A DNA stretch of 64,000 nt from Halobellus rarus (lineage in GTDB: Archaea > Halobacteriota > Halobacteria > Halobacteriales > Haloferacaceae): positions 62,001 through 126,000 of the forward strand of contig NZ_JANHDI010000009.1 of NCBI RefSeq assembly GCF_024494595.1. Reading direction: 5' to 3'. Positions 2,003 through 60,315 of this stretch are shown piece by piece; the stretch's first letter is position 1; each line of letters opens with the position of its first letter. The notes under the pieces are model-generated. The model did no database searches. It saw only the letters and a program-made list of their open reading frames with translations, and was not told the DNA's origin. Both the position numbers and the translations under genes were made by a program.

Positions 2003-4877
2003 GTCATCGTCGGGGCCGACACCGAACGAGCGCCAACAGGAGCTCATCGAGAGCACCGAAGGACTGTACCTCGTTGATGCCGGCCCTGGAACCGGGAAGA
2101 CGTTCGCGATTACACGCCGCTACGGGACGATCGTCGAACAGCCCGCTGTCGAACCCGAAGACATCCTGCTGGCGACCTTTACGCGGGGGGCTGCCACCGA
2201 GATGAAAGAGCGAATCGTCGATCAGAGCACGTACGCACTCAGCGATCTGGTCGACGCCCCGATTCAGACGTTCCATTCGTACTGTCACGATCTGCTGAAC
2301 GAACACGGCTATGCGGCCCCCACCCATCTCGGCCTCGACGAACGGATCACTGGTTCGACACAGATCATCGATGACGAGTTGATCGAAGCCGAGCGGTTCC
2401 GCGAGTTCCTCAGCGGATTTCGGGATGAGCATCCGGAATACACCGACTTGTATCGGGTGCTCTCGGAGCCTGGCGAACTGCTCGATGTGATCACCGAACT
2501 CGCCTCCAAGGGCATCTTCCCCACAGCTGAGGGGTGGTATCGAGATGGTGAATCCCATCTCGATGGCGACCTCGAGGCGTTCACAGCGCAGTTCGACGCG
2601 GTGAATCAGCCACGCAACGATGGTCGAAAGCAATCGGAGTTACGCGAGGCGCTGAGTGGCTTCGGGCGAACCAAGACCTACCATCCGGAAGCGCCGTCGA
2701 AGTCGGAGCTGCGCGGCGGGCGTGGCACGAAACAACTCGATTCGGCGGTGGCACGGACCGTCTTCGAAGAAGACCGCACCGGCCTCAAAGCGTTCGTCCA
2801 CGACGTCTACGTCGAGTATCTCCAGTTCGCGTTGCGGCGCAACTATCTCACCTTCAGCTTCCTCCAGTTGTTTGCGTTCGTGCTGCTCTGTGAGGACCAG
2901 CGCGTCCGCCAAGCAGCACAGTTCGAGTACGTGATGGTCGATGAGTTCCAGGACACCAGCGAAATCCAGTTCAAACTCGCGCTGCTGGTCTGTGGGACGA
3001 ACAATGTCTGTGCTGTCGGCGATTGGAAACAGAGCATCTACAGCTTCCAGTACGCGGACGTCCGGAACATCCTCAACTTCGAGGATCGGCTGGACCAGTT
3101 TGCTGCCGATCTCAACAAGGATACCGAGCGGGTGGCGTTCGACACCGACGAGCTGACCCGAATCGAACTGGAGGAAAACTACCGATCGACGGAATCAATC
3201 ATCGAGCTCTCCGAGCAGACGCTCACGACGCCCGCCACGAGCGGTGAGGACGTCTCGACGACACTGGATGACGTCGTCGAACTCTCCGCGAACGCCGCCT
3301 TCGATAATACGGTCCTCGAGGGCATCCAACACGAAGACGAACACGAGGCAGTCCTCACGAAGATCCAGGCGATCGTCGGCAACGACGAGTACGCTGTCGA
3401 GGGAGAGGACGGCACGCCACGCCCACCCGAGTGTCAGGATATCGCGGTGTTCACGCGGACGCGGGACTACGGACGGGAACTCCTCGATGTCGCTGCCGAG
3501 TACGACTTCCCGATGGCCTACGATGGCGGGATCGAACTCTTCCGGACCGACCCGGCGAAGCTGTTGTTGGCGTGGCTCCGGATCCTCGAGTCGGATGCCG
3601 ACCGCGGCTGGGTCGTCGTCCTCGAAGAGATCGGGTACACCTTCGACGAGATCGAGCATCTGTTAGAGACGGAATCGTATCCGCCAGCGCCAGTCGCGTT
3701 CCGTGACGACCTACGGGAGCTAGCGTCCGTGGGGGCGGTCACGCGGCGGGTGCTCGACCGCTACGGATACACAGGTGACACGGGGGATGTGCTCCTCCAT
3801 ACGATCCAGTCGGTGTACGATTCGACCACCGTCACCCGCGGCGAGTTGATCCAGTTCATCGAACGCGGCATCGAGACCGGAGCCACGGTCGATATCAGCG
3901 CTAATGCTGGTGCGAATGCAGTGACTGTCCAGACGATCCACGCCGCGAAGGGCCTAGAGTACCCGATCGTCATCCTGGCGAATATGAACGATGGGCGCTT
4001 CCCGCCGCGATCGCGTGGATCGAGCATCATTCAGTACCAGGATCCGGTCGGGCTCCGACAGCGGAAGTGCTATTCGGAGGCAGGTGCCTACCCCCACGTC
4101 TACGATAACTGGCGCCACGACGTCATCCGCCGGTGTCTGCCGCGTGGGTACGATGAAGAACGCCGGTTGCTCTACGTCGCCGTCACCCGGGCCGAGCAAC
4201 ACGTCGTCTTCGCGGCTGGCGACGAGCCCAATACGTTCCTCGAGGAACTCCCGGTCGATGTCGAAACGCTCGATGTAACGGTAGAACCACTCGATCGGAC
4301 GACATCGACAGCCGCAGAACTCCCCTTTGCGATCACGACTCCGGAGGGGCCGATCGGCCACACGCCGCATTCGCTGATGGACGAGACCGTCTTCGAGGAG
4401 ACGGATGAACGATCCGAAGCAAGTGCGGAAGTTGACTCGGAGACCCGCGGGCTCGACTTTGGCTCGCAGGTCCACGAGTTCGCCGAGGCCTATGCGCTTG
4501 GTGATGAGGTGACGCCATCCAATCCCCACGAGCAGCGGATTGTGGAATTCCTTGAGGGGCTCTCGGGTGAGTTGTACGTTGAAGAGCCAGTGACACTCCC
4601 GATCGACGTCGATGGCCACCGCGTTACCATTTCGGGGATCGTCGACTTGGTGCAGGTGACAGCCGAGCACGTGGCGATCGTCGACTACAAGACGGATCGG
4701 ACGCGGCACGCCCAGCCGGAGTACCGCAAGCAGCTCAGCGTGTACTATCACGTCCTCGAGGAGTGGTTCCCCGAGAAGGACGTCACGGCGAGTCTGTTCT
4801 ATACGAGTGATGGGTCCCTGGAGCGGATTGAGCCACTCACGATCGTGGAGCTAGGGGAACTCGTTCGGAATCGGTGA
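1995..4877 (+). CDS. UvrD/AddA-like ATP-dependent helicase-nuclease
   Basis: A 960-residue superfamily 1 helicase. Visible motifs in order: Q motif NERQQEL and Walker A GPGTGKT (about residue 31), motif II VMVDEFQDTS, motif III VGDWKQSIYSFQYADV, motif IV ELEENYRST, motif V TIHAAKGLEYPIVIL and motif VI LLYVAVTRAEQ. The last 150 residues add a RecB-like nuclease module (LDFGSQVHEFAEAY, then GIVDLVQV and IVDYKTD). This helicase-plus-nuclease order is that of AddA/RecB. The start at 1995 is preferred over an earlier in-frame ATG at 1761 because the latter lies deep inside the upstream gene, and the 1995 start gives an 8-base overlap typical of an operon. Role: unwinding and trimming DNA ends for recombination, acting with the upstream nuclease. 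Confidence 0.88.
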   Translation: MCESSSGPTPNERQQELIESTEGLYLVDAGPGTGKTFAITRRYGTIVEQPAVEPEDILLATFTRGAATEMKERIVDQSTYALSDLVDAPIQTFHSYCHDLLNEHGYAAPTHLGLDERITGSTQIIDDELIEAERFREFLSGFRDEHPEYTDLYRVLSEPGELLDVITELASKGIFPTAEGWYRDGESHLDGDLEAFTAQFDAVNQPRNDGRKQSELREALSGFGRTKTYHPEAPSKSELRGGRGTKQLDSAVARTVFEEDRTGLKAFVHDVYVEYLQFALRRNYLTFSFLQLFAFVLLCEDQRVRQAAQFEYVMVDEFQDTSEIQFKLALLVCGTNNVCAVGDWKQSIYSFQYADVRNILNFEDRLDQFAADLNKDTERVAFDTDELTRIELEENYRSTESIIELSEQTLTTPATSGEDVSTTLDDVVELSANAAFDNTVLEGIQHEDEHEAVLTKIQAIVGNDEYAVEGEDGTPRPPECQDIAVFTRTRDYGRELLDVAAEYDFPMAYDGGIELFRTDPAKLLLAWLRILESDADRGWVVVLEEIGYTFDEIEHLLETESYPPAPVAFRDDLRELASVGAVTRRVLDRYGYTGDTGDVLLHTIQSVYDSTTVTRGELIQFIERGIETGATVDISANAGANAVTVQTIHAAKGLEYPIVILANMNDGRFPPRSRGSSIIQYQDPVGLRQRKCYSEAGAYPHVYDNWRHDVIRRCLPRGYDEERRLLYVAVTRAEQHVVFAAGDEPNTFLEELPVDVETLDVTVEPLDRTTSTAAELPFAITTPEGPIGHTPHSLMDETVFEETDERSEASAEVDSETRGLDFGSQVHEFAEAYALGDEVTPSNPHEQRIVEFLEGLSGELYVEEPVTLPIDVDGHRVTISGIVDLVQVTAEHVAIVDYKTDRTRHAQPEYRKQLSVYYHVLEEWFPEKDVTASLFYTSDGSLERIEPLTIVELGELVRNR

Positions 4878-58763: not shown

Positions 58764-59090
58764 CACGAGAAACGAGTATGATGAACTAAATGGACGAAAC
58801 GAACGAAACGAAAGTGATGAACTAAATGAACTAAATGAACGAAACGAAAGTGATGAACGCATCGCTATGGAACGAACTGGTCGAGATTGGAGTTATATTC
58901 GTTTATCGAAACGATCGAAACGAACGTAATGAATGAAGTGACTGAAACGAGCGTGTTTGTTTCAACGAGTAGAACGAACAATTGGTTTTAACATTGTGGT
59001 ACTCCTCCGACTGAGTGAAAACACTCTCACTGAACGCACCGAACTAAACGGATAAAACGAACGTAACGAACACAACTAAAGAAACGAAAG
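58764..59090 (+). repeat. Centromere-like GAAAC/GAAC repeat array upstream of parA
   Basis: An array of short AAACGAA/TGAACTAAA words, many on a 5-base step (GAAAC, GAACG, AAACG, TGAAC). Two longer direct repeats stand out: GAAACGAAAGTGATGAAC near 58806 and near 58841. Further copies: TCGAAACGATCGAAACGAAC at 58906, and GATAAAACGAACGTAACGAA at 59051, ending 2 bases before the parA start. A similar run recurs inside the next gene (59982-60000 and 60047-60083). It is probably the partition site bound by the product of the downstream gene. Confidence 0.7.
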
Positions 59091-59092
59091 AT

Positions 59093-59911
59093 ATGACCGA
59101 CACCAACACCGCACGAATCACCGTAGCGAATCAGAAGGGTGGCGCGGGGAAGACGACCGACGTCATTCACACAGGCGGGGCACTTGCCGCCCGGGGCTAC
59201 GACGTCCTCCTTGTCGACATCGACTATCACGGGGGGCTCACCTGCTCGCTCGGTTACAACGATCTGTACTACGACACCGACCGCACAACGCTGTTCGACG
59301 TGCTCGATTTCGATCAGATGGAGTCGGTGAACGACATTATCGTCGAGCACCAAGAGTTCGACATTCTTCCCGCGAGCGAAAAGCTCGCGAACAACAAGAA
59401 CATCCAGACGCTCCTTGAAGCACCAAAGAGCAGAGAGCGACTGAGGATGACTCTCGACGAACTCGATAGGGACTACGACTACATCATCGTCGACACGCCG
59501 CCCTCCCTGAACGTCCTCACCGATAACGCCCTCGTCGCGACCGGCAACGTCGTCATTCCCGTCATCCCCGAGAAACTCAACGCCAACAGCCTCCAGATTT
59601 TCGCAAAGCAGCTGAGCTCCCTCGAACTGGCGTACGGTGACATCAACCGGCTCGCAATTGTCTGCAACCGTGTCGAGCAGAACAGCGAGCACCGAAACAC
59701 CATCGAGGAAATCAAATCGGCGTACTCGCTCCCTGTCTTCGAGATCCCGAAGCGGACCGATCTCTCCCAGTCGATCGGCGAAGGCGTGTCCGTCTTCGGC
59801 TTCGGCAAGGAGAACAAGCGCGTCGAGGATGCACGCGAACTGTTCAACGAGATCGCCGACCTGTTCGACGAGACGTTTGAGAAGACCGCGCCTGAGGAGG
59901 TGAAAGTATGA
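59093..59911 (+). CDS. parA: ParA-family partition ATPase
   Basis: A 272-residue ParA/Soj-type ATPase. Deviant Walker A KGGAGKTTD near residue 15 (the usual KGGVGKTT), Walker A' VLLVDIDYHGGLTCSLG and Walker B YDYIIVDTPPSLNVLTDNAL. The next gene starts within the last codon (ATGA overlap). It moves or positions plasmid DNA with its partner and the upstream array. Length and motifs are normal. An IPEKLNANSLQIF segment after Walker B is typical of haloarchaeal ParA. Confidence 0.9.
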   Translation: MTDTNTARITVANQKGGAGKTTDVIHTGGALAARGYDVLLVDIDYHGGLTCSLGYNDLYYDTDRTTLFDVLDFDQMESVNDIIVEHQEFDILPASEKLANNKNIQTLLEAPKSRERLRMTLDELDRDYDYIIVDTPPSLNVLTDNALVATGNVVIPVIPEKLNANSLQIFAKQLSSLELAYGDINRLAIVCNRVEQNSEHRNTIEEIKSAYSLPVFEIPKRTDLSQSIGEGVSVFGFGKENKRVEDARELFNEIADLFDETFEKTAPEEVKV

Positions 59912-60315
59912 CCGACGGTTGGGGGGATGCCTCCGGTATCGAGGGCAACTACGAAGAAGAAGGCGATGAGGTCGATTCCAGCGAAACGAGTGAGGTGAAC
60001 GAACCAGTGGACACCAGTTCATCGACCGAAACGCCCGAACCGAATCCAACGAGTGGAACGAACGAAACGAACAAAACGAAGACGAATATCAAAGACGAGT
60101 GGAACGGGCGGACGATCTACATCCCGGACGACATCCTCGGCGAGATGGAGGACATCTACCTCGAGTCCCAGCTGAAGCTCCGAAAGGCGGGCCAGGACGA
60201 GTTTAAGAAGAATCGTCACTTCTACCCACTACTTGTCCAGTTCGGTGTTGAGGCGCTGTCTGAGGCGGATGCTGAGGAAATCCAGGCTCGGCTTTCGGAA
60301 TTCGGTGACGAGTAG
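59908..60315 (+). CDS. Probable partition partner (centromere-binding protein)
   Basis: A 135-residue protein. Residues 1-65 are acidic, low-complexity and rich in Ser, Thr, Glu and Asn (EVDSSETSEVNEP, NETNKTKTN). Residues 70-130 form a compact domain: NGRTIYIPDDILGEMEDIY and a helical stretch NRHFYPLLVQFGVEALSEAD. An Arg-Thr-Ile-Tyr-Ile start and following helices look like a ribbon-helix-helix DNA-binding fold. It overlaps parA. Its DNA also contains GAAAC/GAAC runs like the upstream array. Role as ParB-type partner is inferred from position. Confidence 0.72.
   Translation: MTDGWGDASGIEGNYEEEGDEVDSSETSEVNEPVDTSSSTETPEPNPTSGTNETNKTKTNIKDEWNGRTIYIPDDILGEMEDIYLESQLKLRKAGQDEFKKNRHFYPLLVQFGVEALSEADAEEIQARLSEFGDE

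Follow-up and report, generated by a model that had tools for sequence, protein, structure and literature searches.

We identified a partition locus, in the 64-kb stretch of haloarchaeal DNA analysed here (the window), whose parA partner gene contains the same kind of tandem 9-bp repeat that precedes parA. In our sequence comparisons, the in-gene and upstream arrays have motif, step and orientation in common, the two have diversified together across partner families, and the AACGA core in the partner gene is under DNA-level selection. We consider it likely that the partner is a ribbon-helix-helix (RHH)-like centromere-binding protein, with candidate sites both upstream and in its own gene, where they would be dual-coded as a disordered linker. 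In this widespread haloarchaeal plasmid family, one stretch of DNA would thus probably be both protein linker and segregation handle.

The parA gene (59093..59911, + strand) encodes a ParA/Soj-type deviant Walker ATPase of 272 aa with the motif KGGAGKTT. Its product matches Pfam AAA_31 (2.6e-35) and the ParA-like partition protein phrog_164 (3.3e-46). Immediately 3' of parA, as is typical of ParA (Walker-box) partition systems, is the small partner gene (59908..60315, + strand; 135 aa). The parA stop and the partner start overlap by 4 nt. Relatives of the partner are annotated as hypothetical proteins, and searches of Pfam, NCBIfam and PDB sequences gave no assignment. A TATA-like TTTTAA (58986..58991, + strand), recognised from sequence and comparison, lies inside segment GTTGGTTTTAACAT. 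The segment is conserved in most relatives and is the probable promoter of parA and the partner gene.

The partner begins with a near-invariant motif, MTDGWGDASGIEGNY (59908..59952, + strand), which is a candidate ParA-contact segment. Residues 16-59 (59953..60084, + strand) form a linker predicted to be disordered (pLDDT <50 for residues 16-56). The C-terminal domain (60085..60315, + strand) has a strand-helix-helix arrangement in the AlphaFold2 model (mean pLDDT 62). Thus, a strand (residues 68-73) is followed by helices (74-93 and 101-112), and no secondary structure is predicted before residue 58. Because this order matches that expected of RHH proteins, the modelled fold is likely to be RHH; a Foldseek search with this low-confidence model returned no significant structural match. 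The model also predicts a flexible N-terminal tail before the putative DNA-binding domain, as RHH centromere-binding proteins have. The partner may work like ParG but is not classed as ParG-type. The conserved first 15 residues of this partner family contain no arginine or lysine; several distant partner families have Arg-rich starts.

The repeat unit is an AACGA core plus a 4-nt spacer, in a single orientation and with a 9-bp step. It is found upstream of parA (58771-59087) and in the linker-coding part of the partner gene. Upstream block 1 (58771..58875, + strand) precedes the promoter-like element, is also present in relatives, and has AAYGA cores mostly 9 bp or multiples of 9 bp apart. Block 2 (58910..58977, + strand) ends with AACGAGTAGAACGA. 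Block 3 (59032..59089, + strand), recognised from sequence and relatives, occupies the region from the promoter-like element to parA. Because the TATA-like element comes only after blocks 1 and 2, a role at the RNA level does not account for these two. The intragenic array (60048..60079, + strand), defined by pattern counts and its frozen core, has AACGA cores at 60048, 60057, 60066 and 60075. Additional in-gene cores are at 60061 and, as outliers, at 59985 and 59998. An earlier, sequence-only reading held that GAAAC/GAAC words before parA recur in the partner gene. This is borne out: 23 such words are present at 58764-59090 (with 15 AACGA, or 19 AAYGA) and 9 at 59982-60083 (with 7 AACGA). The same reading gave a step of 5 bases, which we correct to 9 bp; gaps of 4 and 5 bp are the halves of one unit (GAAC+GAAAC). 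With this step, successive sites are turned by ~50 degrees. Hence, they do not alternate between faces of the helix as had been proposed.

Within the window, the paired 9-bp pattern AACGARNNNAACGAR is present 6 times (0.05 expected), always on the + strand and only at this locus. The linker contains 7 AACGA. Drawing synonymous codons anew from parA and the C-terminal domain gives an expectation of 2.0 (P=0.00005), and shuffling synonymous codons within the linker itself gives 3.6 (P=0.0017); permutation P values here and below assume independent columns and codons. The repeat is thus enriched over codon-shuffled controls of the partner linker.

Close relatives of the partner were found at 50 loci in one search and in 77 plasmid records in another (haloarchaeal plasmids and contigs). 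ParA was beside the partner in nearly all relatives with enough flanking DNA. A partner relative of some kind is encoded in 184 of 392 genomes from a class-wide sample (E<=0.001) and, in finished genomes, the par locus is often plasmid-borne. Viral contigs, searched with three partner families, yielded no relatives. Among 31 representative relatives, AACGA density was 35 per kb upstream (1.2 on the other strand) and 31.5 per kb in the 5' part of the partner gene (0 on the other strand). Elsewhere it was 3.3 per kb (parA), 2.1 per kb (rest of partner) and 1.3 per kb (downstream). Base frequencies around AACGA differ little between the non-coding upstream array and the coding array. Of 102 in-frame linker spacings, 101 are multiples of 9; upstream, 9 is by far the most frequent spacing (199 cases). 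The number of array copies varies between relatives in whole 9-mers. At one locus, L128, an apparent deletion (2990-3040) through recombination between upstream and intragenic arrays has removed parA and left a truncated, stop-containing partner. Two par-locus copies with identical match scores are present on each of G368:C3 (49836 and 347719) and G384:C4 (12712 and 133996).

Genome-wide motif counts were obtained by pattern searches. Among 26 genomes with the partner, 25 have the stricter triple-unit pattern; among 30 that lack a close relative of the partner, 3 have it. In the window's genome this pattern is confined to the partner gene, a decayed copy elsewhere on its contig, and a VirB4-like gene. 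The decayed copy (L002, G000:C23:192061-192297, - strand) has no parA and its protein has diverged; its 9-bp array, AACGAACGAAACGAGCAAAACGAA, is still intact. The 3' end of the VirB4-like gene codes for TNGTNET, or a close variant, by means of an AACGA 9-bp repeat (L130 at G000:C25:37225, L179-L183, L185 and L186). In those finished replicons that were checked, the repeat runs on the par strand. We considered these repeats as dedicated secondary partition sites and set the idea aside as unproven; the tail has a conserved protein sequence and occurs on Halobacterium plasmids too, as well as in one genome that lacks the partner. At L184 (~1024-1057; G100:C4:17024) an AACGA 9-bp repeat, NEGNERNEGNEG, lies in another gene and in a different reading frame. 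This plasmid also carries a family-0 par locus. Given the repeats in the VirB4-like gene, AACGA-type arrays need not all be partner sites.

Distant partners are ~30-40% identical and have very different linkers, with sequences such as SQNAQN, SEPSQP, ETIETGE, KNER, DNPDN and SKPSE. In many, the linker DNA repeats a motif found just upstream of parA at the same locus. Linker 7-mers matched their own upstream region 1265 times, compared to 405 expected when each linker codon was replaced by a synonymous draw from the codon usage of that locus; this count used the 129-nt promoter-proximal region, and a count over 400 nt of upstream sequence, under a comparable null, was noisy. Partner families were defined as single-linkage clusters at 50% identity, and families 0-4 are each significant for the match (Fisher 1e-4 to 1e-41). 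It is strong in families 0, 2, 3 and 4, and weaker yet significant in family 1, where several members (L147, L153, L175 and L166) do not have it. Family 4 shows a locus-specific match (0.175 with the own upstream region, 0.038 for family mates), so that upstream and linker sites have changed together. Examples of family motifs are TCACAGAACGCACAGAACG (L113), CAGATAATC (L176), GAAACGAYY (L112 and L122) and GCAAAGAC (L115). The 9-bp step is seen again in four families. For L176, an unsupervised repeat search placed the linker in one repeat family with the upstream operator and the first codons of parA, the linker step being 9 bp. The array also extends into the first parA codons in families 3 and 4. 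The operator repeats of most distant families (e.g. L113, L120, L139 and L176) come after a conserved promoter element resembling GTCTGAC...TTTA.

Between families, agreement in the predicted strand residues goes with 2.8-fold more linker-upstream sharing (0.056 compared to 0.020). The effect arises mostly from RTI, in families 0 and 3; RTI goes with AAACG. Within family 2, AGAACG accompanies RS-type strands (L113 and L120), and CAAAGA accompanies HS-type strands (L115 and L121). As a lead from few independent families and small numbers, predicted strand residues appear to track the motif.

We propose a haloarchaeal plasmid partition module at this locus, made up of the ParA ATPase and a small RHH-like centromere-binding partner. 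The partner would bind tandem 9-bp units of AACGA core and 4-nt spacer. Arrays ahead of and around the probable parA promoter would act as operator and centromere. The in-gene array, being linker DNA between the candidate N-terminal ParA-contact motif and the putative C-terminal DNA-binding domain, would add binding sites ~1 kb downstream and may help to build or bridge the partition complex. By analogy with RHH partition systems, the partner may coat both arrays. The DNA motif would dictate the linker amino acids (E/K-T-N/S here, others elsewhere) because the linker presumably tolerates almost any hydrophilic sequence. Partner binding, a segregation role, autoregulation and bridging are what we infer from these patterns, and a function as extra centromere sites is our best inference for the intragenic repeats.

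The partner could instead bind the intragenic repeats only to regulate its own transcription, through a roadblock or looping with the upstream operator, so that partition uses the upstream array alone. We consider this unlikely. The upstream motifs do adjoin a promoter-like element in the families seen, and RHH partition proteins are repressors of their own promoters as well (PMC9499535, PMC7308502). However, several distant families (L113, L120 and L176) have more copies in the linker than in the short upstream operator, which is beyond the need of a simple operator. Furthermore, at least 4 contiguous repeats are required for full ParA activation by pSM19035 ParB (PMC9499535). On our proposal, the linker array is possibly the main centromere in families with a one- or two-copy upstream operator.

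Two other explanations are far less probable. In the first, the in-gene repeat stays uniform through gene conversion or recent copying out of the upstream array, with no selection for binding. L128 resembles a recombination between both arrays, and gene conversion in Haloferax volcanii is reportedly efficient (PMC11276520). Such copying would make the spacers uniform as well, but these vary freely within and between loci and the core alone is frozen. Moreover, a family-0 linker is hardly closer to its own upstream region than to those of relatives (0.141 compared to 0.133). In the second, similarly improbable, explanation a Rep protein uses the repeats as replication-origin iterons, and they are not partition sites. 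Initiator genes that contain iterons are known (PMC7466680, PMC5703833). Here, conversely, the array-carrying gene is the ParA partner, the motif shifts together with the parA partner family, and no replication initiator is annotated beside the locus in the two plasmid neighbourhoods examined.

Selection on the in-gene array was assessed from parsimony changes, counted per base in 73 non-redundant loci on a tree built from parA alone; horizontal exchange makes this tree imperfect for the linker and is expected to inflate, not hide, linker changes. Threonine codons in the array are ACG in 266 of 267 cases. In the best-aligned units, the third base of the E/K codon has 0-2 changes, ACG has 0-0-0 and the first base of the next codon 0-1. 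The exception is one outer unit, where ACG has 3-5-1 changes. Conversely, the four spacer bases mostly have 4-14 changes each, with a single change at one position; many of these changes are non-synonymous, N/S and E/K exchanges among them. Ordinary codon constraint returns directly after the array (0-0-8, 1-3-15 and 0-0-10). Third positions of the four array threonine columns total about 1.3 changes (1, 0, 0 and 0). Four-fold columns of ParA average 10.4 changes each, and none of 200,000 random draws was as low as the array total. For the E/K wobble position in the array P=5e-6. The first threonine after the array (column 77) varies freely, with 14 changes. Thus, synonymous change is rarer than amino-acid change, which is a signature of DNA-level selection. 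The sequence-only reading had suggested that this DNA may be used doubly, as linker-coding sequence and as extra centromere sites. The frozen synonymous sites of the core next to varying non-synonymous spacer sites, and the presence of family motifs in both places, strongly support the double use itself. Unconstrained synonymous change in the in-gene repeat among relatives would have spoken against it and was not observed. A repeat purely at the protein level, with a T/N/E/K/S-rich linker kept by selection or slippage and the DNA repeat a by-product, would suit a low-complexity, predicted disordered linker that varies in whole 9-mers, but is barely tenable given the frozen core, the amino-acid-changing spacers, the abundance of the motif in non-coding upstream DNA and the DNA match kept in distant families despite quite different linker residues.

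A layout with sites inside the gene is already known for replication initiators. In phage lambda O, and O of Stx phages, O-binding sites are located mid-gene, and 2 extra iterons amount to 13 residues (PMC7466680). In the staphylococcal RepA_N protein Rep of pSK41, four Rep boxes are central in rep; the origin DNA codes for a linker domain, which in-frame deletion can remove (PMC5703833). Both resemble the present case in that sites of a DNA-binding protein, here the presumed sites of the partner, lie in its own gene and, for pSK41, in DNA coding for its own linker. Lambda O differs in being a replication initiator and not a partition protein, with no matching array upstream of a ParA operon. 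The pSK41 sites are a replication origin, the Rep binding domain is N-terminal and there is no ParA. The resemblance to lambda O and RepA_N is therefore one of layout and not of membership; the present gene is a ParA partner. Among partition systems, pSM19035 omega uses non-palindromic 7-bp repeats, and TP228 ParG tetramer boxes, as centromere and operator (PMC9499535, PMC7308502). Delta/omega and ParF/ParG are similar in pairing ParA with a small partner (RHH there, RHH-like here) that has a flexible N-terminal tail and short tandem sites, presumed ones in our case. However, their described sites overlap promoters or lie outside the partner gene, the omega step is 7 bp and not 9 bp, and our partner has no detectable sequence similarity to omega or ParG. 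Archaeal SegAB also has overlapping genes for a ParA orthologue and a partner, which is RHH in SegAB and RHH-like here. SegB sites are upstream of segA and, elsewhere on the chromosome, mostly intragenic (PMC5120986, PMC12284271). They differ in being a chromosome-scattered 13-bp palindromic motif, with no 9-bp tandem array in the partner linker. In repABC replicons of Alphaproteobacteria, parS sites likewise lie within ORFs, including the repB 5' end (PMC9040568), but these are dispersed parS of the RepB partner and not a linker-encoding tandem array. We found no report, in the open-access literature, of a partition protein with a linker encoded by its centromere array, an absence that is not proof.

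What constitutes a centromere on archaeal chromosomes and plasmids is listed among the outstanding questions (PMC5120986). Our analysis supplies concrete 9-bp candidate sites for several partner families and, from a few predicted strand residues, points to possible specificity groups. We lean towards the view that, across haloarchaeal plasmids, the centromere writes the linker of its own binding protein. A change of specificity would then shift upstream sites and linker codons together, giving portable in-gene sites and a built-in route to new incompatibility types. In such linkers, the amino-acid sequence would be subordinate to overlapping DNA information, and protein-based analysis of them would be misled.
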